From positions 1 through 38,172 of the IMG/VR virus record IMGVR_UViG_3300034375_012650: a stretch of 38,172 nucleotides of DNA; one strand, written 5' to 3'. Source of the DNA: a virus. Both the position numbers and the translations under genes were made by a program. The stretch's first letter is position 1. Every line of letters starts with the position of its first letter. Under the pieces are notes generated by a model. That model was given only the letters and a program-made list of their open reading frames with translations, ran no database searches and had not been told where the DNA came from. Positions 9,265 to 30,620 of the stretch are shown one piece after another.

Positions 9265-9281
9265 ATAAACACCTTTAATAA

Positions 9282-10208: not shown

Positions 10209-10218
10209 GTCTATTACC

Positions 10219-10707
10219 TTACCAAGATGATGAATAATAAATCAAGTCACCAGAATCTAATGACTTTAACATTTTATCAATACATTCCATATCATGAGTG
10301 TTTCTCCATTCTCTATCCTCATCATCTAAATACGACTCTCCAAAAAAGAATCCTTGAGTATCAGGCAATTTATCATTCTCAATATCTTCTTTAAGTTTCA
10401 AAACATCTTTCTTCATTAGAAAAACAATGTCATTGTTAAAACCTGTTTCACTCTCACCACCTTTATCATAAAATAAATTTTTCATCCAACCATGCAAATT
10501 AGGGTGTTTGCGCCAATAGCACAATTCACTACCCACACCATAAGGAATCATAATAGTAGGGTATCTAGTTATGTATTCCTTTAAATCAAAATCTACATCT
10601 TTATCATTAACATTTAGACTCATAGAATTAATTATAGTTTTTGTAAATTTTTCTAAATCAACAATATCCCATTTTCGAACTACTCTAACATACATATCTA
10701 AGCCCAT
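10219..10707 (-). CDS. Conserved phage protein of the MGLDMY type
   Basis: The 162-residue protein begins MGLDMYVRV and contains ELCYWRKHPNLHGWM (about 75-89). This combination is familiar from many uncharacterised phage and bacterial proteins (YWRK..AIH.WF). The rest is acidic, ending YYSSSW. The repeated His/Trp/Tyr conservation suggests a binding site, but no function is known to me. Confidence 0.85.
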   Translation of the reverse strand: MGLDMYVRVVRKWDIVDLEKFTKTIINSMSLNVNDKDVDFDLKEYITRYPTIMIPYGVGSELCYWRKHPNLHGWMKNLFYDKGGESETGFNNDIVFLMKKDVLKLKEDIENDKLPDTQGFFFGESYLDDEDREWRNTHDMECIDKMLKSLDSGDLIYYSSSW

Positions 10708-10713
10708 AAAACC

Positions 10714-10971
10714 TCACATTTTTTTAGGGTGAATTTTAATCAGGAAACCATCATCATCTTGTATTATATCATAAGAATTAAATCTATTATCCATTACTAT
10801 ACCATATTTTTTAAAGTAAAGTATAGTCACATATGAATAATTGTCATGCATATCTACAGCATCTAGAGTTTGTGTGGCATAATCTATACCTACATTATGA
10901 AGTTTATTGAATCTATAATAATCCAAGGACCAAGGAAATTCTAATTCCTCGTTTTTTATTCGAATTTGCAT
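10714..10971 (-). CDS. Hypothetical protein, 85 aa
   Basis: The ATG at 10971 was chosen because AAAGGA lies 8 bases upstream. A longer frame from 11013 would run over the promoter at 10997-11025. The product begins MQIRIKNEELEFPWSLDYY, is mixed alpha/beta and ends in IKIHPKKM. No family recognised. It has its own sigma70-type promoter. Confidence 0.75.
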   Translation of the reverse strand: MQIRIKNEELEFPWSLDYYRFNKLHNVGIDYATQTLDAVDMHDNYSYVTILYFKKYGIVMDNRFNSYDIIQDDDGFLIKIHPKKM

Positions 10972-11098
10972 AAAGTTTTCCTTTAACTTTACCCTTATTA
11001 TAGTATTTTTCATTAATTATGTCAAGTGAATTTCCGCAATTTTTACAAATTTCTTCGGAATCATCATTCACATATCTACAATATATACAAATATTCAT
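10913..11098 (-). CDS. Possible small zinc-ribbon protein, 61 aa
   Basis: The N-terminal half has CIYC (residues 4-7) and CKNC (18-21), a compact zinc-ribbon pattern followed by GNSL, as in bacterial zinc-ribbon proteins. The start directly abuts the stop of the upstream dehydratase gene and has a modest GGA site. The C-terminal half overlaps the next gene by 59 bases and contains that gene's promoter, which is unusual. The gene may be real with a non-conserved tail. Confidence 0.5.
   Translation of the reverse strand: MNICIYCRYVNDDSEEICKNCGNSLDIINEKYYNKGKVKGKLYANSNKKRGIRISLVLGLL
10997..11025 (-). promoter_or_regulatory. Sigma70-type promoter
   Basis: On the minus strand, TTGACA (11025-11020), 17 bases, TATAAT (11002-10997): a consensus match. 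The gene starting at 10971 follows 26 bases later. Confidence 0.75.
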
Positions 11099-12130
11099 TT
11101 AAATTTCCAACCAAACTGGGTTTTTCAAAGACCAATCTACAACTTCTGATACTCTATCTGTAAATTTAATTTTTGGTTGCCATCCTAATTTTTGCATCAA
11201 ACTACCATCTAGTGCATATCTCAAATCGTGACCCGGCCTTTGAGAGTGAAAATCGACCATTTCATATTTTAATTTTTTATTCTGCACATTGGCAATTATT
11301 GATGCAAGTGTTAAATTATCAATTTCTTCAGGTCCAACTAAATTAAATTTAAAATTTTTACCAACACCCACTGCATCATTGGTTCTATCGTTTACATCAA
11401 CTTTAGCATTCATTAAAAAATGAACACCTTCTGCAACATCTTTTGCATGAATATAATGTCTAGATCCCGCTACAGTTTTTTCAGGATTTGAATGGACTGT
11501 AATATGCTCATCATCTCTAACTTTTCGAATACACATTGGTATATATTTTTCAGGATGCTGTCTTTCTCCAAAAACATTCATCGTGTGTGTAATATAAGTT
11601 GGTATTTTATATGTATTTTCATAAGCAACAACCATTTCCTCAGCTCCTGCCTTCGATGCACTGTATGGATTTCCAGAATTGTATCGATCCCATTCTTTAA
11701 ATTTTATTCCATTCGGAGCAGGACCAAATACTTCGTCCGTGCTAAAATAAATAAAACGTTCTAAATTGTCAATTCCTTTAGCAAAATCCAAGAGATTAAC
11801 AGTCCCGACAACATTATCCATTACAAATTCCATCGGATATTCAATGCTACGATCAACATGTGATCCAGCTGCCATATGAATAATGTAATCTATCTTACCG
11901 ATATGTGAAGATATTTGAGAATTTATGGGAGATTTCAAATCATGCCAAACAGTTCTCACTCTTTTTCTTTCAGAATTATTTTTTAATATGTCTACCATTC
12001 GATTTAAGTTACCACCAAAATCAATACGATCCAATGTGACTATATTATAATCTGTTTTATTTAAAGTTTCTTCAATAAAATGATGAGCAATAAATCCTGC
12101 ACCGCCTGTCAATAAAATAGTTTTACTCAT
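11099..12130 (-). CDS. NDP-glucose 4,6-dehydratase-like SDR (RmlB type)
   Basis: This extended short-chain dehydrogenase acts on nucleotide sugars. The NAD-binding loop is TGGAGFIAHHFIE (about 8-20). IIHMAAGSHVDRSIEYP (about 82-98) and FIYFSTDEVFGP (about 126-137) carry the RmlB-specific Thr-Asp-Glu catalytic triplet. NPYSASKAGAEEM (about 154-166) gives the Tyr-x3-Lys pair. 343 residues is normal for RmlB. The likely product is an NDP-4-keto-6-deoxyhexose. It heads a five-gene glycan module with a sulfotransferase, an epimerase, Glf and a GT2 protein, which would decorate phage particles or host surface. Confidence 0.9.
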   Translation of the reverse strand: MSKTILLTGGAGFIAHHFIEETLNKTDYNIVTLDRIDFGGNLNRMVDILKNNSERKRVRTVWHDLKSPINSQISSHIGKIDYIIHMAAGSHVDRSIEYPMEFVMDNVVGTVNLLDFAKGIDNLERFIYFSTDEVFGPAPNGIKFKEWDRYNSGNPYSASKAGAEEMVVAYENTYKIPTYITHTMNVFGERQHPEKYIPMCIRKVRDDEHITVHSNPEKTVAGSRHYIHAKDVAEGVHFLMNAKVDVNDRTNDAVGVGKNFKFNLVGPEEIDNLTLASIIANVQNKKLKYEMVDFHSQRPGHDLRYALDGSLMQKLGWQPKIKFTDRVSEVVDWSLKNPVWLEI

Positions 12131-12141
12131 TTAACACCTTT

Positions 12142-12942
12142 TCAATTATTTAATATATTATCCAAATTCCATTTTTTTATTTCATTTTTCATAAAACCAA
12201 AATTTTTATTATTTAAAGTTTCCATTAGATCAAACAATTCATCCGCATAACTAACTCCACATTTTTCATCAACTGTAAAACTAACCAAATTTTTCTCATA
12301 AAAACTAGAATAATATTCTATAAATTTTGGATAATCAACAGACTCATCAACAAAATTTGATAGTTTTATAGTGTGATTTGGAATATCCTTAATAAATTCA
12401 GAAAAATTCAAATACAAAACATTATCCGTATCTTTTAAATTATTTAAAATATTATAATTGTGATAAAACCAAACTTTTGCACCCTTAGGAATATCAATAT
12501 TTTGATAAGCTTTTATTGTTGATTTAGTATACAATAAAGGAGATCTATATAAAACTAAAAAATAAATTTTACAATCTATTTTAGAAAATATTTCTTGCCA
12601 TAAATGAAAAGTTTTAGAAATTCTAGGTTCCTTAATTACAAGATTTTCTTTGACAGTCAACAGATTATTCAAATATAAAACCATTTCATCAGAATATCTA
12701 GTTCTAAAATAATCGTTTTCTTCATTTGAAAATTTTTTTGTGGACCAAAAATTTTTTCCTATAGTTTGTAAAAAATGCTCATTTCTGTTCATTATAATAA
12801 CATCTTCAAAATGTCCTTTTACGTTGGTAGGATGTCCACCAATTAAATGATCAGATAATTTGAATCTTATAGAACTGGCAATATTTGATAATACACTTGT
12901 ACCACTTCTTCCAGTTGAAAGTATACAGAGCAATTTTTTCAC
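12142..12942 (-). CDS. Sulfotransferase family protein (PAPS-dependent)
   Basis: The product is 266 residues. The N-terminal LSTGRSGTSVLSNIA (about 8-22) is the 5'-phosphosulfate-binding loop. KGHFEDVIIMNRNEHFL (about 42-58) resembles the GH-x-ED substrate-side motif of glycan sulfotransferases. VLYRSPLLYTKS (about 130-141) supplies the Arg/Ser of the 3'-phosphate motif. It would transfer sulfate from PAPS to a sugar. It overlaps the epimerase by 4 bases, tying sulfation to nucleotide-sugar synthesis. Sulfotransferases are unusual in phages; the exact acceptor is unknown. Confidence 0.85.
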   Translation of the reverse strand: MKKLLCILSTGRSGTSVLSNIASSIRFKLSDHLIGGHPTNVKGHFEDVIIMNRNEHFLQTIGKNFWSTKKFSNEENDYFRTRYSDEMVLYLNNLLTVKENLVIKEPRISKTFHLWQEIFSKIDCKIYFLVLYRSPLLYTKSTIKAYQNIDIPKGAKVWFYHNYNILNNLKDTDNVLYLNFSEFIKDIPNHTIKLSNFVDESVDYPKFIEYYSSFYEKNLVSFTVDEKCGVSYADELFDLMETLNNKNFGFMKNEIKKWNLDNILNN

Positions 12943-13898
12943 AATTCGCCTCTGTAATATTCCCTATACCAATTAACAAATTTTTCAACACCATTTTCTA
13001 TGGATGTTTTTGGTTCATAACCTAGTTTTTTTATTTCTGAGGTATCTGCCCAAGTTTCTTTCAAATCCGCAAAATGCTTTTCGCCATATTTTATCAATGC
13101 TTTTTTTCCAACATTTTTTTCAATAGCACGAACAAAATCCATTAAGTTAATCGATTCTCCTCTACCTATGTTGTATATTTCATTATATTTTTGGTGAATA
13201 TCATCAGATAATATTTTTTTTAATACTAAAGAAATACCATCAACAATATCTTCAACATAAGTGAAGTCTCTTTTCATATCACCATTATTAAACAATGTTA
13301 TTTCTTTTTCTCTGAAAATATGTTTAGTGAAATCAAATAAAGCCATGTCTGGTCGACCATATGGTCCATAAACAGTAAAAAATCTAAGACCAACAGTTTT
13401 ATCAATTTGAGATGCTAAAAATTGACATTCATTTACCCTTTTAGTATATCCATAAGGACTTGTCTGCATTCCAGGATTATCAGATTCTTTGAAAGGTAGT
13501 TTTTGACCATGCTGAACGCATGAAGTGGAAGCATATATCACATTATTAATAGAATTCTTTTGACAAGCATCTATCAACTTCTGCGTTGCTACAATATTAT
13601 TTTCAATATATTCGTATGGATTTTCTGAAGAATGTCTAATTCCAACGCTTGCTGCTAGATGAATAACGCAATCAACATTATTCAAATAGTCCGACCATTT
13701 GTTAGTTCTCAATACATCATCATTCAATACGGTTATGCCACTTTCTTGTAAAATTTTTGTTCTGTCGTATTTTAAATTAACATCATAATAAGTATTATAG
13801 TTATCAATACCAACTACATGATAATTCATTTTTTTAAGTAGTAAAGATAAATGAAAACCAATCATTCCCGAAATACCAGTAATAAATATTTTATTCAT
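12939..13898 (-). CDS. NAD-dependent nucleotide-sugar epimerase (UDP-glucuronate 4-epimerase-like)
   Basis: This extended SDR has TGISGMIGFHLSLLLK (about 7-22) as NAD loop; the usual Gly-rich GxxGxxG is TGISGMIG. VIHLAASVGIRHSSENP (about 80-96), YASTSCVQHG and the catalytic SPYGYTKRVNE (Tyr-x3-Lys) follow. FFTVYGPYGRPDMALFDFTK (about 174-193) and KRDFTYVEDIVDGI are hallmarks of UDP-glucuronate/galacturonate 4-epimerases. At 319 residues it is slightly short. It overlaps neighbours on both sides by 4-8 bases, an obligate operon arrangement. Confidence 0.88.
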   Translation of the reverse strand: MNKIFITGISGMIGFHLSLLLKKMNYHVVGIDNYNTYYDVNLKYDRTKILQESGITVLNDDVLRTNKWSDYLNNVDCVIHLAASVGIRHSSENPYEYIENNIVATQKLIDACQKNSINNVIYASTSCVQHGQKLPFKESDNPGMQTSPYGYTKRVNECQFLASQIDKTVGLRFFTVYGPYGRPDMALFDFTKHIFREKEITLFNNGDMKRDFTYVEDIVDGISLVLKKILSDDIHQKYNEIYNIGRGESINLMDFVRAIEKNVGKKALIKYGEKHFADLKETWADTSEIKKLGYEPKTSIENGVEKFVNWYREYYRGEL

Positions 13899-14976
13899 TC
13901 AGTTCCTCAATAAATTTAAATGCTGAAATAATAACTTTATCCATGTCATAATACTTATACTCACCTAATCTACCTCCGACCAATATATTAGATTCACCTG
14001 ATATTTCATTTCTGTATTTTTGATAAATCGAATTATTGAATTGATCATTAACTGGATAAAAAGGTTCATTAATTTTAGGATTATATTCTATAGGATATTC
14101 ATATGATAACCATGTAGTATTAGAATGGATATTTTCAAAATGTTTGTGTTCTATAATGCGTGTGTAAGGAGTTTCAATATCTGTAAAATTCATCACAGCA
14201 ACACCTTGATAATTATCAGAATCAATTTTTCTGTGATTTAAACTAACTGTTTTATATTCTAAATAACCAAATTTATAATCAAATAATTTGTCAATCGGAC
14301 CAGTATATATTATTTTGTTGAAAGAAGGTAATTTACTTTTAAAAAAATCTGTGTTTAATGAAACGTCAATATCTTTTAATAATTTTTCAAAAATTTGCGT
14401 ATAACCACCTATAGGTATACCTTGATATTTGTCGTTAAAATAATTATTGTCATAATTAAATCTAACAGGAAGCCTTTTGATTATTTCCTTGGGCAACTCT
14501 TTACATTCTTTTTTCCATTGCTTTTCAGTATAACCTTTAATTAAGGTATTGTACACATCTTTGCCCACTAATTTAATTGCTTGTTCTTCTAAATTTTTAG
14601 GATCTTTGATTTCAAATCCCTGCTCTTCTATAATATTTTTAGCATCCTCAGGTAATACGATATTCCACAATTTTGAAAATGTCCACATATTAAATGGTAT
14701 AGAAAAAACTTTACCTTTAAAATTAGCAACTGGCCTATATGTAAAATCATTAAAACTGCAATATTGATTTATCCAATTCCAAACAAATTCATTTGAGGTA
14801 TGAAAAATGTGCGGTCCGTACATATGAAGGTTGATATCATCTCTTTTTTCAGTGTAACAATTACCACCGACATGATTTCTGCTATCTATTACTAGAATTT
14901 TTTTGCCTTTTTTCTGTAACTCACGGGCGCATATCGATCCAAAAAAACCAGCACCAACTATTAAATAATCATACAT
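13891..14976 (-). CDS. glf: UDP-galactopyranose mutase
   Basis: Glf is a flavoenzyme converting UDP-galactopyranose to UDP-galactofuranose. The FAD loop is VGAGFFGSICARELQKKGKK (about 7-26), followed by the acidic IDSRNHVGGNCY. HMYGPHIFHTSN (about 52-63) is the classic Glf active-site stretch. Further on are RPVANFKGKVFSIPFN, YTEKQWKKECKELP and, near the C-terminus, VGGRLGEYKYYDMD. The length of 361 matches bacterial Glf (about 370). The start overlaps the GT2 gene stop by one base. It implies a galactofuranose-containing glycan. Confidence 0.95.
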   Translation of the reverse strand: MYDYLIVGAGFFGSICARELQKKGKKILVIDSRNHVGGNCYTEKRDDINLHMYGPHIFHTSNEFVWNWINQYCSFNDFTYRPVANFKGKVFSIPFNMWTFSKLWNIVLPEDAKNIIEEQGFEIKDPKNLEEQAIKLVGKDVYNTLIKGYTEKQWKKECKELPKEIIKRLPVRFNYDNNYFNDKYQGIPIGGYTQIFEKLLKDIDVSLNTDFFKSKLPSFNKIIYTGPIDKLFDYKFGYLEYKTVSLNHRKIDSDNYQGVAVMNFTDIETPYTRIIEHKHFENIHSNTTWLSYEYPIEYNPKINEPFYPVNDQFNNSIYQKYRNEISGESNILVGGRLGEYKYYDMDKVIISAFKFIEELNE

Positions 14977-15755
14977 TAAATACCAAGTTCTATCATTCTA
15001 TTTTTATGTTCTTCAGGAATGAGTGTTTTATTTTTCAAAAATAACATAAAATGATTTTTCTGTAAATCAAAATCAATAGATTTATTATGAGAACCACCCA
15101 AATCTTCTTTTTTCAAAACTCTATTTTTTAAACGATGTGAATTTCTTTTTAAATTTATATCCCAATCAACTGTATGTAAATGTGCCAAAAACAAATCACT
15201 ATCTCTGACACCTATAGCATCTGTTGAAATGACATTATGAAATCCATGTGAATATTTCAACTTTTTCTTAACAATCAATCCCTTATCATGATTTGGTTTT
15301 CTTGCCCAATATTTTCTGTATTTTGAAGAACACATGAATTCATTGTATGTGAGATTAGAATCTTTTTCAGTATTTAAAAAATCATGAACAATGTTATATC
15401 CTGTGTTCACAACATAATCATGATGTTTTAAATTATTAGCCATTTGAGATAAAAAATCTCCCCTTAAAGTATATAAAAAATCATCCGCCTCAATAAAAAT
15501 AACATGTTTATATTTTTTCAACAATTTTTCTTGAAAATCAACAACTGTGCCAACTAGCCATTCATGATCGAATGATTTTTCATAGGAAACTTTTACAACA
15601 TTTACATCCAAATCATCAGTAGATCCATCATTACTGTCATGATCTAAAACGTAAAAATCTAAAGGATCAATATATTGAGTATAGTATTTAATTAATTTTG
15701 GTAAAAAATATTTTTCATTTTGAACAATTGTAAAAATAGCAAAATCACTTTTCAT
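14976..15755 (-). CDS. GT2-like glycosyltransferase (Glyco_tranf_2_4 type)
   Basis: The product is 259 residues. The N-terminal FAIFTIVQNEKYFLPKLIKY (about 5-24) and DFYVLDHDSNDGSTDDL (about 33-49) follow the GT2 nucleotide-binding pattern. HVIFIEADDFLYT supplies the DxD-like metal site (here EADD). The His-rich LAHLHTVDWD is typical of the family that works on LPS-like glycans. AAGG stands 9 bases before the ATG. It ends the glycan module next to glf. Confidence 0.85.
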   Translation of the reverse strand: MKSDFAIFTIVQNEKYFLPKLIKYYTQYIDPLDFYVLDHDSNDGSTDDLDVNVVKVSYEKSFDHEWLVGTVVDFQEKLLKKYKHVIFIEADDFLYTLRGDFLSQMANNLKHHDYVVNTGYNIVHDFLNTEKDSNLTYNEFMCSSKYRKYWARKPNHDKGLIVKKKLKYSHGFHNVISTDAIGVRDSDLFLAHLHTVDWDINLKRNSHRLKNRVLKKEDLGGSHNKSIDFDLQKNHFMLFLKNKTLIPEEHKNRMIELGI

Positions 15756-15760
15756 CGTAA

Positions 15761-16480
15761 TTACCTTTTCTTTTTCTCCAATTCAGATTGAATCCATTTT
15801 TTACCAACAGGATTTTTAACTGGTTTTTTGATCAAACCAACAACTTGTCTATAAACTTTATTGAATATTTCTTCACCAGCATTATTGTTATCAACCAATA
15901 CAAAATTTTCTCGACCAAAATAATTTTGAAACTTCCCAATATTATCTTGAACTTGATTCCACATTTTTTCAACCTTTTCTGGTTCTAAGCTTCTTTCTCT
16001 CTCAAGATTTCTTTTCTGTGCAACTGCTAATGATGTATTAACAAAAAGCATATAAGTGTCATAACCAACACCTCTTAATTTTTCAGATGCTTTCTTAATT
16101 TTGTCAAAATCTTTTCCTGTCCCATCAATCAATAATCCCAATCGTCCAGAAATATATCCACCCTCCATTTTCTTTGTCAATTCCTTTGCATGTCCTCTAA
16201 TTTCCTGACCTTTGTTGCTGAAAATATTTTCAGGTGTCATTTCCATTCCAGCATCTCTTAATAATTTTTCATATTGATCATCTGAATTAATTATTTTTAT
16301 TCCTTGTGCATTTACGATTTTAGATCCTTTTCCTCTACCAATACCTGCCTGCTTTGCCATAAAAGATTTACCAGAGCCCGGACCCCCTGCAGTAAAAAAT
16401 GCTTTCAATATACCAGGATCGTATACTCCTTCATCCAGTAATTGCAATTCTTCTTGTAAATATTCCGAGAAACTTTTCAT
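15761..16480 (-). CDS. P-loop kinase (zeta-toxin-like) with capsid-targeting N-terminus
   Basis: The product is 239 residues. MKSFSEYLQE occupies residues 1-10 and matches, position by position, the T4 capsid-targeting peptide (aromatic at 4, Glu at 10, L-x-E cleavage consensus). After a short linker comes the kinase core: AFFTAGGPGSGKSFMAKQAG (Walker A, about 27-46), KIINSDDQYEKLL (about 62-74), LGLLIDGTGKDFDK (Walker B/substrate strand, about 115-128), and an Arg-rich RNLERERSLEPEK lid. This is the zeta-toxin/uridine-kinase-like fold frequent in marine T4-like phages. The start overlaps the HAD gene stop (ATGA). Substrate unknown. Packaging in the head is inferred from the peptide. Confidence 0.87.
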   Translation of the reverse strand: MKSFSEYLQEELQLLDEGVYDPGILKAFFTAGGPGSGKSFMAKQAGIGRGKGSKIVNAQGIKIINSDDQYEKLLRDAGMEMTPENIFSNKGQEIRGHAKELTKKMEGGYISGRLGLLIDGTGKDFDKIKKASEKLRGVGYDTYMLFVNTSLAVAQKRNLERERSLEPEKVEKMWNQVQDNIGKFQNYFGRENFVLVDNNNAGEEIFNKVYRQVVGLIKKPVKNPVGKKWIQSELEKKKR

Positions 16481-16977
16481 AAACCCAATTCCTTTAACTG
16501 TTTAATTGTTGAATCTGCAGAAGTGTGAAGAATCGCTACACCTCCTGCTGCTTTAAATTCTTTTATGTTTCTTATATCATCATCAATTAAAATAGCATTT
16601 TCTTTTGCATAATCTTTTTTTTCTGCCCTCAACACTGTGTATATTTTACTTCTGGAAAAGTTGAAAACTTTTTTCATCCACCCAATCTTATCTTCAGGCG
16701 CCTCTTTTGAGATATTACCTCTTTTTGCTGAAGGATATGCTGTCAATATATATAATCTATATTTATTGATGTAAGAGAATAACTTCTTCGCATCAGGCAT
16801 AGGATCAAGAAGTTCATAAGTATTGTCAGGTAATTTATCCCAATGACTATCAGTAAATTTACCTCCACTTTTTTCATTTGCAAATTTGACAAAATCTGCC
16901 AATACGCCATCCATGTCACAGTAAATGGTTACGGTTTTTCTTGTCAGTTCTTCTTTCAGTTGTCTATAAGATAACAT
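16477..16977 (-). CDS. HAD-superfamily phosphatase (5'-nucleotidase-like) with capsid-targeting-like N-terminus
   Basis: The ATG at 16977 is preferred over the non-ATG at 17004; it has GAGAG upstream and follows a sigma70-type promoter. The protein opens MLSYRQLKEE, which fits the packaging-peptide pattern weakly (Tyr at 4, L-K-E). The HAD motifs are IYCDMDGVLADFVKFANE (motif I, nucleophile Asp and acid Asp), LTAYPS (motif II), a Lys in the middle region, and ILIDDDIRNIKEFKAAGG (motif IV). This C-terminal layout is that of small phage and mitochondrial 5'(3')-deoxyribonucleotidases. It overlaps the kinase gene, and a kinase/phosphatase pair could act on the same ligand. Confidence 0.87.
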   Translation of the reverse strand: MLSYRQLKEELTRKTVTIYCDMDGVLADFVKFANEKSGGKFTDSHWDKLPDNTYELLDPMPDAKKLFSYINKYRLYILTAYPSAKRGNISKEAPEDKIGWMKKVFNFSRSKIYTVLRAEKKDYAKENAILIDDDIRNIKEFKAAGGVAILHTSADSTIKQLKELGL

Positions 16978-17009
16978 TTTTTCTCTCTTAAAGGAAATCA
17001 ACAAATATT

Positions 17010-17038
17010 ATTGTAAACAAATACCAAATATTTGTCAA
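17010..17038 (-). promoter_or_regulatory. Sigma70-type promoter inside the packaged-protein operon
   Basis: On the minus strand, TTGACA (17038-17033), 17 bases, TACAAT (17015-17010). It precedes the HAD gene start at 16977. It implies that the phosphatase and kinase can be expressed early as well as late. Confidence 0.6.
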
Positions 17039-17667
17039 TCTTTTTTTATTAATATTCTGTCTCCATACGCTTTTTTGGATACATTATTTCTCTGACAAAA
17101 TTCATCAATTGCCTTCTTCACTCCAACAAAACTGCTTTCATAATCATCGACCAATATGTAGGAATTTTTTTTAGTCAAATTATAGAAATTATTAATATCT
17201 AGTTTCACATCTTCGTATTCATGTGATCCATCAATGTAAACAAAATCTGGATATATTTTATGATATCTTAAAATTCTAGAACCGATCAGTGAAGAATTAG
17301 GTATTGGAATAACAACATTTTGAAATCCTCTATGAACAATGTTCGATAAAAATTGATAATATATTTGAGGATAACCATTTTTCATAAGCAAATTTCTTGT
17401 TTTTGTGTCTGCCAAGTTTGTATGAAATTCCGCAGCACCCAACCAAGTATCAATACAATAAATTTTACAATTTAATCTTAATTCTTTAACAGCTTCTGCC
17501 ATCTTTATGGCAGTATATCCTTTCCAAGATCCAATTTCAACTACAACAGAAGGTTTCAATTCAGTGAAAAGATTTAAAAATATAGAATCATCTCTAGACC
17601 ATCCTTGAATATCTTCTTCCATCAATTCTAAATTATCGTAAATACTCTCATTTAATTTTATACTCAT
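17035..17667 (-). CDS. Class I SAM-dependent methyltransferase (Methyltransf_24-like)
   Basis: The product is 210 residues. SVVVEIGSWKGYTAIKMAEA (about 39-58) is motif I (E-x-G-x-x-x-G). KIYCIDTWLGAAEFH (about 68-82) gives the acidic residue after strand 2. DFVYIDGSHEYEDVKLDI (about 137-154) is the motif common to the glycan or O-methyltransferase subfamily, and YILVDDYES follows. It overlaps its upstream neighbour by ATGA. It lies inside the run of capsid-targeted genes but lacks the targeting peptide, so it may act in the infected cell rather than the virion. Confidence 0.85.
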   Translation of the reverse strand: MSIKLNESIYDNLELMEEDIQGWSRDDSIFLNLFTELKPSVVVEIGSWKGYTAIKMAEAVKELRLNCKIYCIDTWLGAAEFHTNLADTKTRNLLMKNGYPQIYYQFLSNIVHRGFQNVVIPIPNSSLIGSRILRYHKIYPDFVYIDGSHEYEDVKLDINNFYNLTKKNSYILVDDYESSFVGVKKAIDEFCQRNNVSKKAYGDRILIKKD

Positions 17668-17969
17668 TGAAAAGCTGATCCTATTTTTTGTTTTTTGATA
17701 TACTTCTTTTCTTTTTTATATTTGTTGATAAAATCCTTATACAAATTTTTCTGATAAGTTACAATTTCATCAGGTACATCGCCCTCTAATTCGTCTACAT
17801 CACCATCCCAATCCATATCAACACTAATTTTAGCATCTTTCATCTGATGTTTTAATGTTCTATTAGGATCAAGCAAGTGTTTAGGATCTTGCAATTGTTT
17901 GTGTGATATTTTCTTGTCAGCTTGTGATTGCCATCCTAAAGTCTGAAAAAAAGTTTTATAAGTTTTCAT
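17664..17969 (-). CDS. Hypothetical protein, 101 aa, N-terminus resembling packaging peptide
   Basis: It opens MKTYKTFFQT. The first four residues are identical to the T4 IPIII targeting peptide (MKTYQEFIAE), but the Glu at position 10 is missing. A central acidic DMDWDGDVDELEGD stretch (about 51-64) and a very basic C-terminal tail (KKYIKKQKIG) follow. Small, bipolar in charge and without enzyme motif, it resembles a T4 internal protein. No family is recognised. Confidence 0.75.
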   Translation of the reverse strand: MKTYKTFFQTLGWQSQADKKISHKQLQDPKHLLDPNRTLKHQMKDAKISVDMDWDGDVDELEGDVPDEIVTYQKNLYKDFINKYKKEKKYIKKQKIGSAFQ

Positions 17970-17971
17970 AT

Positions 17972-19210
17972 TTACTTACCTAAAATATTAATTAATGTTT
18001 TTTTATCATTTGTTCTATTTTCAACCGCATATTTCAATAATTTTAATAGTGCAGTTCCAATTTGTGGACCTTTAAATCCTAATTTAATTATATCATTACC
18101 TTTTACAGATAATTCTCTTAAATCCAATGGTGCACCAGATTTTTTTAATGATCTAAGTTTATTCGTCACAGTATTCTCTCCCAATGCCTGACAATAAAAA
18201 TCAATTTGTTCTAAATCATTTGAACTAATTCCCATAACAAATTCAATCAGATCAAAATTGTCAATACTAATATCTTTACTATATCTAATTACAGATTCAA
18301 TACTTTTTTTAGTGCCACTAGAAACTTTAAATTTTGTAAATGCAACTTGTCCTGCCTTTAAATCATAAGATCTAAGCAGTAATGCAAGAAAAACAGGAAA
18401 TGCTTTTTTGTCAAGTTTATCTATTATAGAATTTATTTTTTTATCATTTTTTGATTGAGGAAGCAACACAGACATTATTTTTGTTTGATATAACAAATCA
18501 ATACCTAAACTAGGTTTTTCAGATTTAACAAATAACTTTTTAAATTCCTCTTCAAATCTACTTGCTGATACTGATGTTATTTTTTTTACATTTTGTTGAA
18601 TCTTTTTCATTGTTTCGGATTCAATTTTAAACTCGAATCTTGCAGCAAATTGTATTGCTCTCAACATTCTCAATGGATCATCAGAAAATGCTTGAACATT
18701 AATTACACGTATCTGCTTATTCTGAATATCATATTGTCCTTTGCCTTCAATATCATGCAATTCTCCAGTTTCGATATCTTTGGCAATCGCATTCATCCAA
18801 AAATCTCTTCGTAGTTGATCTTGCTCTAATGATATATTTTTACCCAGTTTTATTTGAAAATCTTTATGTCCCTCACCAGTACTGGCCAAATCTACCCTAG
18901 GCACTGATATGTCAAGAGGTTCTTCTTCCTTAGCAGAATTAAAAGGTTTAAACTTTAAAATACCAAATGATTTTCCGACCGCATCTACTTTTCCAAAACT
19001 AGATAGTATCTTCTGCAAATCATTTAATTCAATTCCAGTGACTAAAAGATCTAAATCCTTGGAAACTTTTCCAATTAATTCATCTCTTACAGCACCGCCA
19101 ATTTGATAAATTTTTCCCCCATTCAGTTTTATTCGTTTTCTCAACGAACTACTGACTGATGCATTTAATTCAGATGCTTTTTCATTTAAGAAAAATTTAA
19201 AATCTATCAT
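17972..19210 (-). CDS. CCA-adding enzyme / poly(A) polymerase-type nucleotidyltransferase with capsid-targeting N-terminus
   Basis: The product is 412 residues. After MIDFKFFLNE (packaging peptide, Glu at 10) comes the class II tRNA nucleotidyltransferase fold. GGKIYQIGGAVRDELIG (about 31-47) holds the Gly-Gly motif and DLDLLVTG (about 52-59) the catalytic DxD pair. RRDFWMNAIA (about 134-143) is the RRDF..NA motif, and DDPLRMLRAIQFAARFEF (about 178-195) is the neck ERxxxE-like region. The enzyme adds CCA to tRNA 3' ends, or A-tails to RNA; sequence alone does not separate the two. All tRNA genes here already encode CCA, so repair of damaged host or phage tRNAs is more likely than maturation. 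Confidence 0.9.
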   Translation of the reverse strand: MIDFKFFLNEKASELNASVSSSLRKRIKLNGGKIYQIGGAVRDELIGKVSKDLDLLVTGIELNDLQKILSSFGKVDAVGKSFGILKFKPFNSAKEEEPLDISVPRVDLASTGEGHKDFQIKLGKNISLEQDQLRRDFWMNAIAKDIETGELHDIEGKGQYDIQNKQIRVINVQAFSDDPLRMLRAIQFAARFEFKIESETMKKIQQNVKKITSVSASRFEEEFKKLFVKSEKPSLGIDLLYQTKIMSVLLPQSKNDKKINSIIDKLDKKAFPVFLALLLRSYDLKAGQVAFTKFKVSSGTKKSIESVIRYSKDISIDNFDLIEFVMGISSNDLEQIDFYCQALGENTVTNKLRSLKKSGAPLDLRELSVKGNDIIKLGFKGPQIGTALLKLLKYAVENRTNDKKTLINILGK

Positions 19211-19596
19211 ACTTGCAATTTTTTATTCGATGTCATAAAATTCTTTTTTCTCATAATAGTTTTTGCAACTAAATCAAATTCCTGCGTTCTATTATCATAT
19301 TTTAAAACGAATGGCATATTGATATCTGTTTCCATATCATGAATTACAGCCTGTGCATCATCACCCAATTTTGGAATTTTCTTACCATGTTTTTTATATG
19401 TCTGCTTGAACAACCTAGTCAATTCAGCAGTATTAATTGGTTTTTTATTTCTCTCATCATTAACACGATCTAAAAAATGTCTTGTAAAATTAACGTCTAT
19501 TCCAACGGCAGCGAATAATTTATCAGCAAAACGTTCTACACCATCCAAATCTTTTTTTGTAACTTCTTCATTTATGAAATCTTTAAAATTAATCAT
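19207..19596 (-). CDS. Conserved phage hypothetical protein with capsid-targeting N-terminus
   Basis: The product is 129 residues. It opens MINFKDFINE, a near-perfect packaging peptide (Phe4, Ile8, Glu10). The body contains FTRHFLDRVNDERNKKPI (about 38-55) and ends FDLVAKTIMRKKNF. This pairing recalls a family repeated across marine T4-like phages, but I cannot name it. RxF/HFLDR followed by an alpha/beta C-terminus is reminiscent of RelE/BrnT-like small toxins; that is only an impression. It overlaps the gene above and below by 4-8 bases. Confidence 0.85.
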   Translation of the reverse strand: MINFKDFINEEVTKKDLDGVERFADKLFAAVGIDVNFTRHFLDRVNDERNKKPINTAELTRLFKQTYKKHGKKIPKLGDDAQAVIHDMETDINMPFVLKYDNRTQEFDLVAKTIMRKKNFMTSNKKLQV

Positions 19597-19828
19597 TGGT
19601 CTCCATTTTGTCTATCATTCTATCGAAATCACCACGTTCTATTTTATCTCTAAATCTTTTACCTCTTTTCATAATCCATTTTAATGCAGCATCATCAATT
19701 TTATCTCCAGTTTTTCTAGCACTTCTTTGCATCAATGCCATTTGAATTTTATTCGCAATCAATGATTTTTGTGCTGGAGTGAGATCATTATAACCCTCCA
19801 TAGTTAAATAATCTTTAAATGATAGCAT
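19589..19828 (-). CDS. Small basic helical protein with capsid-targeting-like N-terminus
   Basis: The product is 79 residues. It begins MLSFKDYLTME, i.e. the packaging pattern with one extra residue before Glu (at 11). The remainder is basic and helical (KIQMALMQRSARKTGDK, then KRGKRFRDKIERGDFDR), as in T4 internal proteins, which bind packaged DNA. No enzyme motif. Confidence 0.82.
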   Translation of the reverse strand: MLSFKDYLTMEGYNDLTPAQKSLIANKIQMALMQRSARKTGDKIDDAALKWIMKRGKRFRDKIERGDFDRMIDKMETND

Positions 19829-19833
19829 ATTTT

Positions 19834-20727
19834 CTACTTATTTAATTTATTTAATTCAGCTTGAACTGTTTTGGCAACAGCATTTTCTGGTACTAATTTA
19901 ACAGGAACTTTATATTTGTCTTCTATCATTTTGTATTCATCAGGTGTAATTTCAGAATTATTTAAAATCAATTTTATCACTGTAAAATTAGATAATACTA
20001 TTTCATCATAACCATCATAAAGCATTTCTTTTTTTCTTGTTGATGAATTTTTTTGCATTCTAATCCAATGAAACAAATAATCATGAAATATTTTTTTATT
20101 TTTATTAATCAAAGCATATAATTGGTCATAAAATGTTTTAATCATTCTATTTTGTGCTTTTTTATCATTATCTCTAATCCAAAAATAACCAGCAAGGTCA
20201 TTTTGTTTCACGGGTTTATCTTTCATCTCATCTCTCAATATTTTAAGTTTCATTGATTCGATTTTTTGAGATAACTTACTAATATCCACTTTAGCATTGT
20301 GTCTGGCTGAAACAGAAATCATTGTATCTTGAGCAATATTAATATAACGTACTCCTTGTTTATCAACTATAGAATTTATATCACCATGACCTCCTGCCAT
20401 AGCATATCCTTTCACTATAGCAATGACACCTGTTCCACCCCACATACCACCACCTGATATTGTACCATAATCATTATGAATGTATTCAACACTAAATGTT
20501 GATAGCATCTTACTTTTTTTGTTTTGAATAGAAAATAAATTATTTAAATTTTCTACACCTAATGAGTGTGCAGTATACATCGGCACCGTGCCTATTGTCT
20601 TATTCAATAATGAAGATTGTAAAGGTATTATAACTGTTTCTTCATCATCATTCGGTTCAAAAATTTGAGCAAACGCAGATTTAGTCCATTGCACATCTTC
20701 TTCAAGATATTGCTTAAAAGAAAACAT
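19834..20727 (-). CDS. Capsid-targeted protein, paralogue of the 34 kb gene
   Basis: The product is 297 residues. It opens MFSFKQYLEE followed by DVQWTKSAF. Shared with the gene at 33999-35087 are VQWT[KR]S, a hydrophobic H-x-x-x-x-x-NL-x-x-L segment (YTAHSLGVENLNNL, about 51-64), KKSKMLSTF, GGGMWGGTGVIAIVKGYAMA (about 92-111), DINSIVDKQGVRYI and YDEIVLSNFTVIKLIL near the C-terminus. The Tyr-x-x-His-Ser opening followed by a Gly-rich strand could be the start of an ADP-ribosyltransferase-like fold, as in T4's injected Alt. I cannot demonstrate the NAD-binding triad, so treat that as a guess. Confidence 0.85.
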   Translation of the reverse strand: MFSFKQYLEEDVQWTKSAFAQIFEPNDDEETVIIPLQSSLLNKTIGTVPMYTAHSLGVENLNNLFSIQNKKSKMLSTFSVEYIHNDYGTISGGGMWGGTGVIAIVKGYAMAGGHGDINSIVDKQGVRYINIAQDTMISVSARHNAKVDISKLSQKIESMKLKILRDEMKDKPVKQNDLAGYFWIRDNDKKAQNRMIKTFYDQLYALINKNKKIFHDYLFHWIRMQKNSSTRKKEMLYDGYDEIVLSNFTVIKLILNNSEITPDEYKMIEDKYKVPVKLVPENAVAKTVQAELNKLNK

Positions 20728-20745
20728 TGATTCTCCTATTTCGTG

Positions 20746-22185
20746 TCATATTTCATCGTAATCCACTGGAGCATTACCCCAATCAATTTTTATTGTTTCG
20801 CCCGGTGTAGGCTGTTTCTTTATAGTTTTCATCCAATTTTCTAATGGTGTCAATCCAGATTTTGCTAATTTTTGTACAGAAACGAAATGTGTATCACCCC
20901 ATCCAGGATTTTCCCAACCTTTCATAACTTTAAATTCAACAGCATTTAAACCAAATTGAATTACTTGTTCTCCGTTTTTTATTTTTGGAGTTGGAAACAC
21001 ATCTATTGATTCAAATGTACCAGAAGAATTTTTAATCGCATCAAAACTTGCCATTGCCATGTTCGCCAATTCTTTAGATCCTTTTATATACAAAGCATCC
21101 AACTCAAACCTTTGTTTTACCTTTTCTAAAATATTCAACAATCTTACCATTGGTTGTGCCGCATCCATATGATTGTAAGCAACCCCTGAATATATCAAAT
21201 AATTTTTTAATATCAGCATTATTTCTGTCTTATCGGCAGGCCATACATATGATATAGGATGGGTAGATGCTTTACCTGGACCTTGAAAAGCATATCCTTT
21301 ATTGTATCCAGAATCTAATACATCTAGTTTAGTGGTGTCAAAAAATACTGCCTGTACGGGTTCTGATGGATGTATAATACCTTCACCCATTTTATCTGCC
21401 ACGCCCATATATCCCAGTTCTCTCATAATAAAATTCCACACATTAGTGGCCCTATCGCTATTAAAATTTCTCTTAATAGTAAGTCTTATTTTTTCGTCAC
21501 TAAAATTTGCTTTTTTTCTTTTATCTTTTATTCCATCGATAAGTTCTTCCTCGTATTCTGGAATAAAAGATGTTGCTAATTGCGAGGTGAGACAGAAATA
21601 TGTGTATCTCGTCATATTCCAAAAACGACCTCCCGGAGATCTATTTCTTGAATCATTATTCGCTTCGTTTAAAATAGCTTTTGCTGCTTCCCATCCTAAA
21701 TATTCACTCATTTTATTTTTTGTCATAAAAAATTTGATTATCATTTTAGATAATTTCTGATAATCAGTGTCCCATTGCTTCGAATTATATTTGTGCAATA
21801 TAACAGTTTTTTTGGGGTTTTTAGGTTTAACAACCCAAATCCAAGGATTATCACCTGCAAAAGGAACATCTAAAACTTTTTGACCAACATTCGCATATTT
21901 TGTCCACGCTTCTTTTAGTGGATATGTGTATAACCCGTTTGGTGTATTAAATGTTGATCTTGGGTTAATACCTAATTTAAAACCTTCAGCATTTTTAGGT
22001 AATTTTTTTCCTTTATCGTGAGATAAATTACCAACATCTGCTGTATAAGTAATATAAACATTTTCATCATTGTGATATTTTTCCAGTACATCAAAAATAG
22101 AGACCTTAGGATTAAGTTCTTTTCCAGTTATCTTTGAAATTGGATTTCTTCTTGCTTCGTTGAAATATTCTTTAAAACCTATCAT
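20746..22185 (-). CDS. Large conserved hypothetical protein with capsid-targeting N-terminus
   Basis: The ATG at 22185 has AAGGA 8 bases upstream and overlaps the preceding stop (ATGA). The longer frame from 22206 is rejected. The 479-residue product begins MIGFKEYFNE. A recurring block follows: YITYTADVGN, then KLGINPRSTFNTPNGLYTYP (about 72-91) and VPFAGDNPWIWVVKP. Aromatic-rich segments continue (FWNMTRYTYFCLTSQLATSF). The C-terminal part includes VQAVFFDTTKLDVLDSGY. No known catalytic signature is recognised. The NTPNGLYTYP strand within a Gly/Tyr-rich N-terminal domain is worth a structural search. Confidence 0.85.
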   Translation of the reverse strand: MIGFKEYFNEARRNPISKITGKELNPKVSIFDVLEKYHNDENVYITYTADVGNLSHDKGKKLPKNAEGFKLGINPRSTFNTPNGLYTYPLKEAWTKYANVGQKVLDVPFAGDNPWIWVVKPKNPKKTVILHKYNSKQWDTDYQKLSKMIIKFFMTKNKMSEYLGWEAAKAILNEANNDSRNRSPGGRFWNMTRYTYFCLTSQLATSFIPEYEEELIDGIKDKRKKANFSDEKIRLTIKRNFNSDRATNVWNFIMRELGYMGVADKMGEGIIHPSEPVQAVFFDTTKLDVLDSGYNKGYAFQGPGKASTHPISYVWPADKTEIMLILKNYLIYSGVAYNHMDAAQPMVRLLNILEKVKQRFELDALYIKGSKELANMAMASFDAIKNSSGTFESIDVFPTPKIKNGEQVIQFGLNAVEFKVMKGWENPGWGDTHFVSVQKLAKSGLTPLENWMKTIKKQPTPGETIKIDWGNAPVDYDEI

Positions 22186-22760
22186 GTCATCAGTCCTTCC
22201 CACCAATCTGCTTTTGGATGATCTTTATCGTATTTCTTTTGATCAAACACCCATTCAACTTTTTTAACTCTCATTGCAATGTAACCTTTTGTCTTACACT
22301 TAAAACACTCACCCATTTTATTGAATTTAAATTGTTCAATGTAACCTTTACCTCCGCATTTATCACACGTTACATTTTCCATATCGGTGGTAATTTTTTT
22401 GGTGTAATATGGATTTTTTTCTAATTTTTTATTTTCTTCCTCTTTTCTTTCTTTTTCTTTTTTCTCCAATTCTCGCCTTAATTGTGCATTCTTTAATGCT
22501 TCTTTGGCTTTATCTGATGATTTTATTTTGGCAGAATCTTCTTGATTTTTAGCATCCGTATAACCAATTCGATATTCTTTTTCCAATCTAGCATGTAACT
22601 TCTTATCCTCAACACCATTCAAAAACCCATGAATAAAAACCACATCTTTTTTTGGATTATTTTCTATTCTATTTCCATATGCCTTTTTACCCAAATATCT
22701 TGCTCGGGTAATTAAATCTTTAGAAATGGATTCTTCTAATTGTTCTAAAAATTTTTTCAT
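22182..22760 (-). CDS. DnaJ-type zinc-finger protein with capsid-targeting-like N-terminus
   Basis: The product is 192 residues. It starts MKKFLEQLEE (L-E-E, Glu at 10). A charged helical region (about 85-115, Glu/Lys-rich) precedes one zinc centre: CDKCGGKGYI (about 132-141) and CFKCKTKGYI (about 152-161). This CxxCxGxGx repeat is the cysteine-rich cluster of DnaJ-type chaperones, here one pair rather than the usual two. It overlaps the J-domain gene by 4 bases, so J domain and zinc finger are made as separate polypeptides. Confidence 0.87.
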   Translation of the reverse strand: MKKFLEQLEESISKDLITRARYLGKKAYGNRIENNPKKDVVFIHGFLNGVEDKKLHARLEKEYRIGYTDAKNQEDSAKIKSSDKAKEALKNAQLRRELEKKEKERKEEENKKLEKNPYYTKKITTDMENVTCDKCGGKGYIEQFKFNKMGECFKCKTKGYIAMRVKKVEWVFDQKKYDKDHPKADWWEGLMT

Positions 22761-23782
22761 TTTTTATCCATTTGTTCTTTATATTTTTTATGAATGGCAT
22801 TCACCTCTTTTGCAAAATCAGCATCAGATTTAGCATTTTTAAATGAATCACCAAACTCTGTCATCATATCAATTAATAATTGAGATTCTGGAAATGTTGT
22901 TGTAGGACTTATGCTTGCACCATTGACATTTGAAAATATATAACCAGGCATTTTCATTATGGTAAATCTATACCCTCTCAGGTATCTTCCCTTACCATAA
23001 TTACCCAATACAAAATTATCTTTTATGACATCACCACCAACTTTATTTTTCCAATGTGATATTACATCCGCTTTTTTAACTGGTTTTACTTTGCCTGTCG
23101 TAGAACCCGTTGCAAACATCTTTTTAATTTTTGCAGTAGGAACTAATACTGTCGGGTCTTTTAAAATCTTATGATCAGATGTTGCTGTGTATTCCACTTG
23201 TTTGAATTTTTGTTTTCTGCCATTATGATATCCTTCCATCCACACACTCAAAGGATATGATAAATCTCCTCCACCTAAAGTATTTTCTTTTTTATAAACA
23301 TTTAACAGATACACTGAAAAATGAAACTTAAAAAATGTATCTCTACCATCGTCAAAAAATTCAGCAGTAAATCCCACATATGAATTACCATATTGAGAAT
23401 CTTCTTTTACTTCAACTTTAAGGGGTTTTTCTGAGTATGAATTAAAATATTTTAACCAAACATCTGATTTAAAATTTGATAATATTTGTGATAGTATAAC
23501 AGGAGAAAATATTTTTGCCCAATCATTATATTTTGCAAAATGATCGGTCTTTTTTAAACCAGAAGATGCATCGGACCTACCGCCCATTTTTTTTAATGTG
23601 TCGTATGCATCATTAACTTTCTTCATTTCTTCTTCTGATCCACCCTTATCAGGATGATTTTTTAGTGCTGATTTTTTGTATGCGGTTTTCAATTCTGAAG
23701 ATGTAAAATTAGATTTAACATCTAAAGTTTTTAATGCGTCATTGAATGACATTTCAGTCAAAAAAGATTTAAAGCTGTACAT
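22757..23782 (-). CDS. J-domain protein with capsid-targeting N-terminus
   Basis: The product is 341 residues. The N-terminal MYSFKSFLTE is a good packaging peptide. A J domain follows at about 12-68: FNDALKTLDVKSNFTSSELK, then KKSALKNHPDKGGSEEEMKK with the HPD tripeptide that stimulates Hsp70 ATPase, then VNDAYDTLK. The remaining 270 residues are not a classical DnaJ C-terminus. They are beta-rich (about 95-225) with a TGKVKPVKK basic segment and KGRYLRGYRFTIMKMPGYIF. It is the first gene after a NATAAATA late promoter and opens the packaged-protein operon. It may recruit host DnaK. Confidence 0.9.
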   Translation of the reverse strand: MYSFKSFLTEMSFNDALKTLDVKSNFTSSELKTAYKKSALKNHPDKGGSEEEMKKVNDAYDTLKKMGGRSDASSGLKKTDHFAKYNDWAKIFSPVILSQILSNFKSDVWLKYFNSYSEKPLKVEVKEDSQYGNSYVGFTAEFFDDGRDTFFKFHFSVYLLNVYKKENTLGGGDLSYPLSVWMEGYHNGRKQKFKQVEYTATSDHKILKDPTVLVPTAKIKKMFATGSTTGKVKPVKKADVISHWKNKVGGDVIKDNFVLGNYGKGRYLRGYRFTIMKMPGYIFSNVNGASISPTTTFPESQLLIDMMTEFGDSFKNAKSDADFAKEVNAIHKKYKEQMDKK

Positions 23783-23825: not shown

Positions 23826-23833
23826 TATTTATT
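23826..23833 (-). promoter_or_regulatory. T4-type late promoter (AATAAATA) of the packaged-protein operon
   Basis: The minus-strand AATAAATA is 44 bases upstream of the J-domain start at 23782, in a gene-free AT-rich gap. It would drive the run of genes down to about 15.8 kb late in infection, when heads are built. Confidence 0.6.
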
Positions 23834-28878: not shown

Positions 28879-29700
28879 TTAATCTTTATCCAAAGCACTG
28901 ATCAATCTAGTCAGACCTATTCCTCCTCCAACTCTCGGAAAGAAATCAAATGCTAAGAACTTTTCTAATTCTTTTACAACTCTGTCTTTACCAAACAATT
29001 TGAACAACAGTTGACTATATTCTCCATTTGTGATTGTATGGAATGTTTCTCTCATTTGTTCTTTGTCAGTACTACGTTCTGCACTACCAACAGTTTCCAT
29101 ACCACCTAAAATAACGTCAATTTTTTTACTATGAACACCGTCATCATATCTACTCATGTTCCAAAAAGGACTGGTAAATTCTGGAAAATCGGTAATCATA
29201 GCAGTGCCGAAATCTCTTTGCATCAGTAATTCATGATCCGATTTTAATTCATCATTCGAATCTAATCCGAATTCTTTTTGCCATTCGATGTATTTTTTTT
29301 CTGTTGGTTTTACGAAACCCAAATGTTCACACAATTCATATTCCATGCTTTTCAAATCATCTATGTTACCAGGAAATTCAAATTCAAACATGGGAAAAAT
29401 TATATCATGTCTACCAGGTATAGCATTTGGTTCTTGTCTATAACTTGTACTAACGCAATAAAATCCTTTAGCATTTGAATTACTCAATAGTTCATGTTCT
29501 AACCACATTTGACCGGTTTGCGGTAATGGCCAAACTTCTCCTGCATAATTATAAGTCGCAACATTAAAAGGATCTTCACAAGCCGCTAATATACTCAATC
29601 GATTTTGAGTATGAACTTCTAAAAAACCTCTGTTAGAAAAAAACTCTCGTAATGAATTAACGGTGGATGTAAATTTAATCGGATCAATTAATTGGGTCAT
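28879..29700 (-). CDS. Class II aminoacyl-tRNA-synthetase-like protein (AspRS/AsnRS/LysRS catalytic core only)
   Basis: The product is 273 residues. Seen: RGFLEVHTQNRLS (about 24-36, motif 1 region), YCVSTSYRQEP (about 102-112) and RHDIIFPMFEFEFP (about 117-130) as motif 2, TSPFWNMSRYDD (about 177-188), GGMETVGSAERS (about 199-210) and GGGIGLTRLISALDK (about 258-272) as motif 3. There is no anticodon-binding domain. The core is most like the subclass IIb family, which includes AsnRS-related archaeal-type asparagine synthetase and EpmA/PoxA. It probably adenylates an amino or carboxylic acid, but the acceptor may not be tRNA. A large folded element lies just upstream. Confidence 0.88.
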   Translation of the reverse strand: MTQLIDPIKFTSTVNSLREFFSNRGFLEVHTQNRLSILAACEDPFNVATYNYAGEVWPLPQTGQMWLEHELLSNSNAKGFYCVSTSYRQEPNAIPGRHDIIFPMFEFEFPGNIDDLKSMEYELCEHLGFVKPTEKKYIEWQKEFGLDSNDELKSDHELLMQRDFGTAMITDFPEFTSPFWNMSRYDDGVHSKKIDVILGGMETVGSAERSTDKEQMRETFHTITNGEYSQLLFKLFGKDRVVKELEKFLAFDFFPRVGGGIGLTRLISALDKD

Positions 29701-29768
29701 AATTTTCCTATTGTATATAATTAAAAATTTATTTTAGATAAACCTTAGTATATATACAATTTGTATTC

Positions 29769-29950: not shown

Positions 29951-29981
29951 TCTAACTGTGTTTACACTCACTCCATGATTC

Positions 29982-29989
29982 TATTTATT
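29982..29989 (-). promoter_or_regulatory. Possible T4-type late promoter (AATAAATA)
   Basis: The minus-strand AATAAATA overlaps the stop of the small gene at 29985-30143 and lies about 32 bases before the folded element. It could produce a late transcript of the element plus the synthetase-like gene. Confidence 0.4.
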
Positions 29990-30143: not shown

Positions 30144-30235
30144 TTGTTCACCATTAATTAAAATTTAAATTAAAATTCTAAACATCACTAATATCACAAT
30201 CATCATAACAAAAACATCCATGTTTTTCAACCTTT

Positions 30236-30583: not shown

Positions 30584-30620
30584 GGTCACCTCTAAAAATT
30601 AAATTAACTGAACAAATTCT

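Follow-up and report, generated by a model that had tools for sequence, protein, structure and literature searches.

Candidate T4-Type Capsid-Targeting Leaders on Ten Late Proteins of a Marine Phage

Why should a tRNA nucleotidyltransferase, a kinase, a J-domain protein, and several other proteins of unrelated sequence begin with nearly the same ten residues? The question is raised by IMG/VR record IMGVR_UViG_3300034375_012650, a linear fragment of 38,172 bases, all of which was analyzed and which is referred to here as the window. It has the character of a T4-type marine phage, and capsid genes are absent from it. On its minus strand, positions 15761-23782 hold eleven tightly spaced, co-directional genes, nine of which encode a T4-type leader of the form M-x-x-F/Y-x-x-F/Y-L/I-x-E or a near variant, with an aromatic residue at position 4 and usually at position 7, a hydrophobic residue at position 8, and usually Glu at position 10. 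A tenth tagged gene (33999-35087) lies outside the run, 10 kb away. The internal proteins of T4 are a textbook curiosity, three small proteins plus Alt. The shared decapeptides are very probably (roughly 84%) capsid-targeting sequences of the T4 type, in which case the ten late proteins would be packaged in the phage head, trimmed by the gp21 protease, and delivered with the DNA.

The run opens with a 341-aa J-domain protein (22757-23782), whose leader MYSFKSFLTE (codons 23753-23782) is followed by M. Next come a 192-aa protein (22182-22760) with a DnaJ-type CxxCxGxG zinc-finger-like segment and the leader MKKFLEQLEE (22731-22760), and a 479-aa protein (20746-22185) in which MIGFKEYFNE (22156-22185) precedes ARRNP; its start was taken as the ATG at 22185, not the TTG further upstream. 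A 297-aa candidate for the ADP-ribosyltransferase (ART) fold (19834-20727) carries MFSFKQYLEE, then D (20698-20727). The leader of a 79-aa basic protein (19589-19828), MLSFKDYLTME (19796-19828), is one residue longer and is followed by G. A 129-aa protein (19207-19596), from a family widespread in T4-type phages, begins MINFKDFINE, then E (19567-19596), and a 412-aa CCA-type tRNA nucleotidyltransferase (17972-19210) begins MIDFKFFLNE, then K (19181-19210). A 101-aa protein (17664-17969) starts with MKTYKTFFQT (17940-17969), which lacks E10. The run ends with a methyltransferase (Methyltransf_24; 17035-17667) that has no leader, a HAD phosphatase (NT5C-like; 16477-16980) that starts MLSYRQLKEE, and a P-loop kinase (Zeta_toxin/AAA_33; 15761-16480) with the leader MKSFSEYLQEELQLLDE, then GVYDP (16430-16480). 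The product of the tagged gene outside the run, also on the minus strand, has 362 aa and is paralogous to the 297-aa protein (34% identity); its leader is MQGFKEYCQSLHE, then E (35046-35087). Position 4 is F or Y in all ten tagged proteins and position 7 in nine (Q in MKKFLEQLEE). Most of these leaders end in [LI]-x-E; MIGFKEYFNE ends in F-x-E, and MKTYKTFFQT has no such site.

The leader is far from what the window would yield at random. Of 56 gene starts, 6 match the strict motif M..[FY]..[FYLI][LIFMCVY].E, with ~0.03 such matches expected; other sites, in ~10,900 residues, account for 5 matches. Nine run genes score p<=0.0003 (1e-4 for the J-domain protein and 3e-4 for the 192-aa protein) against a position matrix derived from 46 leaders, all from outside the window, and MQGFKEYCQSLHEE of gene 33999-35087 scores p=0.0008; the next best gene of the window reaches p=0.01. 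By this matrix, 9 of 11 genes in the run have the leader versus 1 of 46 in the rest of the window (Fisher p=6e-8), the one being the run member's paralogue. Genome-wide scans recovered seven strict leaders in record G022 and four in G002. Codons for F, Y, K, I, and E are AT-rich, and chance or composition bias might be invoked on that ground; we regard this explanation as already refuted by an enrichment of ~200-fold at gene starts over protein interiors, by the matrix scores, and by replication of the pattern in G022, G002, and a third record (W04).

These results bear on a preliminary description of this DNA, made from its letters, that had called the run a late operon of proteins sharing a capsid-targeting peptide. 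The N-termini it quoted were all found on the minus strand, the enrichment and matrix scores establish the shared leader as real, and the bodies behind it (CCA enzyme, kinase, J domain, zinc-finger-like protein, and others) are indeed unrelated. The picture of a tagged operon holds for nine of the eleven genes; the methyltransferase is untagged, and one tagged gene lies elsewhere. The description had also counted MKTYKTFFQT as a variant. Its targeting positions 4 and 7 are kept and the processing residue E10 is absent, so that the 101-aa protein is predicted to reach the head, perhaps without being processed. The HAD phosphatase, listed there as a member, was rejected: its matrix score is at chance level, and HAD homologues adjoining the kinase in two other contigs (L020 and L023) have no such leader.

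T4 itself supplies the controls. In the T4 record, ipII and ipIII start with MKTYQEFIAE, ipI with MKTFKEFTSTTTPVSTITE (ending STITE) followed by A, and alt with MELITE followed by L, and gp23 has FLTE followed by A; cleavage of all five by gp21 is taken from the literature. Mutants of IPIII assign residues 4 and 7 to targeting and residues 8 and 10 to processing, with D10 blocking processing only (PMC9026906). The conserved positions of the window leaders (4, 7, 8, and 10) are the same four. LxE is conserved at the equivalent position in the gp23 homologues of Methylophilales phage Melnitz, Pelagibacter phage HTVC008M, and four contigs (FLSE/A, FLGE/I, FLTE/A, MLHE/A, and MLNE/A). Among 29 records scanned, gp21 (PF03420) and gp23 co-occur in 9 of the 9 that hold either, and these nine include contigs with a leader-bearing CCA enzyme or 479-aa protein, the Agrobacterium jumbo phage Atu_ph07, and a Desulfovibrio phage. 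A CCA lineage without detected gp21 is also without the T4-type leader; its leaderless genes are only a partial negative control, because records G013 and G009 belong to another lineage that has its own tag. The preliminary description had named leaders in phages without a prohead protease as evidence that would overturn its reading, and none were seen. G022 has seven leaders and no gp21 match, but no gp23 or terminase match was found there either, so this 115-kb record may be a fragment.

The kinase reveals how precisely the leader ends. A kinase-alignment search of viral contigs returned 80 loci, from which leaders were taken by anchoring on the conserved body start G-V/L-Y/N-D, with no leader motif used. 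The 52 distinct leaders so obtained vary in length, the shortest having 8 residues and the longest more than 20 (examples are MKTFQELQE, MKSYKQLIE, MKTFQDFIQE, MIQFNSFIEKTELTE, and MSKKFSDVKDDIIKEQIKDLNE). In every one of the 52, the last three residues before the body match [LIVFM]xE, and in 51 they match [LI]xE. The closest isolates to the run kinase are Melnitz and HTVC008M, with the short leaders MKTFAELQE and MIPFILKE and the predicted mature N-termini GVYDPNIFK and GLYDPGIFK, respectively; AKVKAEDYEAAIVIGWYELHER is the predicted mature N-terminus after MQGFKTFLSE. Contig L023 holds, besides its first kinase, a second paralogue (L023:7882-8646) with MKTFNEFVLHE before GLYDPG; the tagged kinase is therefore duplicated in some phages. 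Taken with the IPIII positions and the pairing of gp21 with gp23, the [LI]xE at the kinase boundary favors the capsid-targeting reading that the preliminary description had put forward.

Other families repeat the pattern. Homologues of the CCA enzyme start MIKFSSFLTE, MFKFSTFFNE, MRKFKNYIIE, MKPFRKFLNE, and MIKFSSFVTE, and members of the 129-aa family start MKRFKSYIPE, MRSFKEYILE, MKKFKEYISE, and MLTFDNYIYE, with shorter forms besides. In the T4-superfamily Sinorhizobium phage phiM12 (L343:6540-8348), a protein of 602 aa starts like a nucleotidyltransferase, continues through a basic middle part, and has the 129-aa family as its C-terminal domain. Each of the 479-aa homologues (L100, L102, G014, and G002) has a leader. 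In Desulfovibrio phage 7757, the J-domain homologue (33% identity) begins MKSFKEYISE, and another leader in this phage, MIEFKQYVLME, resembles MLSFKDYLTME of the 79-aa protein. ART-like proteins at 21-33% identity all keep M1, F4, Y7, L8, and E10, and leader-bearing ART-like genes lie directly before the kinase in contig L063 and near it in L023. At the level of sequence, the leader is the conserved part across these divergent families.

A common 5' end could in principle persist as a relic of recombination, aiding exchange of cargo genes with no targeting role, and neighboring genes of L063 do share the near-identical starts MKTFKGYLKE and MKTFKGYLTE. This explanation is scarcely credible, since leader sequence and length diverge while positions 4, 7, 8, and 10 and the cleavage site persist, and loss of the tag in the CCA lineage coincides with the lack of detected gp21.

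Atu_ph07 presents a fused arrangement. Six consecutive proteins of this phage (L015:647-7581) start with MK/RWxxLxE, and the block carries ART-like YRGM and KSFIC-type motifs. The last of the six, of 778 aa, has the kinase as its second domain, with VTE at the joint and then GVNDK; further NLTE/NLNE sites lie between its later domains. The fusion is possibly a head polyprotein released by the protease. Virion proteomics of Atu_ph07 reported 131 virion proteins (PMC6102473); by inferred numbering (AUZ94997 as gp215 and AUZ94986 as gp204), the ART-like/kinase block is gp83-gp88, outside the three named clusters, a position that neither supports nor refutes packaging.

Expression signals and protein chemistry were also compared. 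The late promoter that the preliminary description placed at the head of the run is present as a T4-type candidate, AATAAATA, on the minus strand at 23826-23833, with the run's first ATG 44 nt downstream. A second candidate, CATAAATA (35129-35136, minus strand), lies 42 nt before the tagged gene 33999-35087. The T4-type late consensus NATAAATA, as a consensus match only, stands 42-44 nt upstream of both tagged units. Counts of AATAAATA alone are not enriched in the window (8 versus 5 for the reversed pattern); only its spacing to start codons is informative. Adjoining the second tagged gene is a third late unit, 35396-35989, with TATAAATA at 36032-36039, 43 nt before it; its product has a lipoprotein-like signal (MKNFIFILFLLTLLGC). 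After leader removal, the isoelectric points of the ten tagged proteins are 8.7-9.8, with a median of 9.45, as compared to 6.35 for other window proteins (p=1e-4). Internal [LI]xE sites number 8 in the tagged bodies versus 21.4 expected from shuffles (P=0.0075), whereas other window genes have 114 versus 95.

Short amphipathic N-terminal peptides suit many docking roles, as is generally known, and the leader might be an address for an assembly other than the head, such as a replication complex or a membrane. We consider this highly improbable: [LI]xE is fixed at the body boundary, the promoters are of the late type, the conserved positions are those mapped in the IPIII capsid-targeting sequence (CTS), and gp21 co-occurs. 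A role within the head itself deserves more weight and is still unlikely. Here the leader would target the head, but the proteins would serve head assembly or DNA condensation, with the enzyme domains as passengers. The tagged bodies are basic, as are the T4 internal proteins, and loss of IPIII in T4 causes head defects (PMC9026906). However, the CCA, kinase, and J-domain bodies retain catalytic or HPD motifs, the cargo varies between phages, and T4 IPI, IPIII, and Alt are active in the host cytoplasm. IPI inhibits GmrSD, and IPIII is required to infect ECOR17, where it is functional without its CTS (PMC9391042).

The sequence of events that we favor, packaging followed by trimming and delivery, can be laid out as follows. 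The tagged proteins would be made late from NATAAATA promoters, and their leaders would dock to the prohead core via the aromatic residues at positions 4 and 7. A gp21-type prohead protease would then cut after [LIF]-x-E, leaving the mature basic proteins in the head with the DNA. Upon infection, they would exit with the DNA and act from the start. The predicted steps through trimming draw on sequence signatures and T4 biology and are held with high confidence; injection, which draws on analogy with T4 IPI, IPIII, and Alt, is held with less.

Several points weigh against this scheme. Support for packaging consists of sequence signatures and T4 analogy. The gp21 of this phage is assumed, since no capsid genes fall within the 38-kb fragment. 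The matrix test is not fully independent, because its leaders were collected with a motif derived from the finding, and the 52 kinase leaders are not 52 independent events, because homologues share ancestry. The form of the leader is not fixed either, given the short versions in Melnitz and HTVC008M. Among the genes of the run, one is leaderless (the methyltransferase), one is doubtful (HAD), and one lacks E10 (MKTYKTFFQT). Relatives show the shortage of internal [LI]xE sites only weakly (38 versus 48.2, P=0.065), and [LI]..E drops equally there, so that this depletion is treated as supporting only.

Among the tagged proteins, the CCA enzyme matches PF01743 (E=2.9e-16) and PF12627 (E=6e-13) and has intact GGAVRD, DLD, and RRDFWMNA motifs of the Pol-beta head plus an RNA-binding domain. 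The J-domain protein has its HPD motif, and the DnaJ_CXXCXGXG match of the 192-aa protein (E=0.003) is below the cutoff. Pfam gave no match over the cutoff for the 297-aa protein or its 362-aa paralogue, and neither for these two nor for the 479-aa protein did the annotated phage collection yield a relative. Used by itself against viral contigs, the 297-aa sequence retrieved no relative; the two-paralogue alignment retrieved one. A structure model of the 297-aa protein (mean pLDDT 68.7) gave no Foldseek match at E<=0.001. In a second look with VIA, the tRNA 2'-phosphotransferase Tpt1 ranked first (7yw4, Z 5.7, 90 aligned residues, root-mean-square deviation 3.5), followed by DarT (8baq, Z 5.1; 7omx, 4.9; 7yk3, 4.6), with unrelated chains from ~4.2 down. 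H54, S76, and E242, candidate residues of an H/R-S/Y-E catalytic triad, do not vary among six sequences with 21-33% identity, and E242 lies in Y/W-D-E in five of the six. Both paralogues are candidates for the ART fold, which we take as likely. The model of the 479-aa protein (mean pLDDT 48.7) was too poor for a structure search. The likeliest joint role of the cargo would be tRNA repair after attack by host defenses together with early host control, which fits the presence of the CCA enzyme, the kinase, and a Tpt1/DarT-like fold.

The CCA homologues that lack the T4-type leader (G009, G013, and L196-L199) may point to a second solution. Their records gave no gp21 or T4-type gp23 match, and G009 encodes a terminase, a portal, a head protease (phrog_23555), and a major head protein of its own. 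In G013, M-(S/T)-W-x-D-I-L-K or a variant stands at 13 of 120 gene starts, with 7 internal occurrences in 27,252 residues; at gene starts of the T4-type records tested, M[ST]WxDILK was not found. Among the tagged genes of G013 right before the terminase are those for the CCA enzyme, for a HAD phosphatase of the Swiss-army-knife type (PF10307, HAD_SAK_1), and for a tRNA-ligase-type phosphodiesterase (PF08302). The tag is also on at least nine other genes, most of which adjoin terminase and portal. Sites lie in L308 (G013:C1:1-20000) at 21-6855 and 15226-16470, in G009 at L337:3352-4991, and in L196 and L199. Relatives of the G013 HAD, CCA enzyme, and phosphodiesterase on other contigs lack the tag; because HAD relatives elsewhere are without it, M[ST]WxDILK is not part of the enzyme family. 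It looks like an independent tag on an RNA-repair set near head genes. A broader idea, somewhat less likely than not, is that short lineage-specific N-terminal tags are a general phage head-loading route and that unrelated lineages evolved different ones for the same RNA-repair cargo: MKxFxxYLxE, borne here by the CCA enzyme and the kinase, and M[ST]WxDILK in G013 and its relatives G009 and L196-L199.

Elsewhere in the window, positions 7843-15755 and 28879-37654 hold many host-type metabolic genes, as read from their translations. These include SAICAR synthase, PRPP synthase, sugar epimerases, and a UDP-galactopyranose mutase-like protein, along with an asparaginyl-tRNA-synthetase-like protein, radical SAM proteins, and an IscA/HesB-like protein. 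The window also has genes for tRNA-Arg, tRNA-Leu, and tRNA-Tyr.

Parts of this picture have precedents. CCA enzymes and J-domain proteins were listed earlier in jumbo phages (PMC7824862), head-packaged ARTs and injected multidomain proteins were predicted earlier (PMC5512222, PMC9503650), and the CTS has been proposed as a general loading route of T4-type phages (PMC9026906). A text search of the literature for MKTYQEFIAE and MSWEDILK gave no match, and no report of a CTS tag on such cargo was found in the literature searched, which covers few subscription papers. If the packaging reading is true, marine and other T4-type phages are equipped with a set of enzymes recognizable in sequence by a ten-residue tag, and many hypothetical proteins become predicted injected effectors. 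The set delivered in the first minutes would be testable, including a CCA-adding enzyme, an ART-like enzyme, and a co-chaperone. A genome-wide rule for finding such sets would combine a leader, [LI]xE at the body edge, a late promoter, and a basic body.

Among known systems, T4 IPI, IPII, and IPIII are the closest: they too begin with a decapeptide that has aromatic residues at 4 and 7, a hydrophobic residue at 8, and E10, and they likewise have unrelated basic bodies and an origin in T4-type phages with gp21. The window cargo differs in being larger, mostly enzymatic, and encoded in one late run, whereas T4 has three small internal proteins and Alt. Alt is a delivered ART with a short propeptide ending in LITE, and the window has two leader-bearing ART-fold candidates; these lack a Pfam ART match, resemble Tpt1/DarT at modest Z, and carry an IPIII-type leader rather than MELITE. 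Polyvalent proteins and head-packaged ARTs likewise combine varied enzyme domains with predicted DNA co-injection (PMC5512222, PMC9503650). Their domains, however, are fused in one polypeptide or to MuF or portal, whereas the window proteins are separate and have a cleavable tag in common. Atu_ph07 is a bridging form, with an ART-like/kinase polypeptide and an LxE-type site (VTE/GVNDK) before the kinase. In giant phages of the SPN3US/phiKZ type, a prohead protease also strips N-terminal propeptides from many inner head proteins (PMC5694885), but those propeptides are mostly longer than 100 residues and end in AxE- or SxE-type sites.

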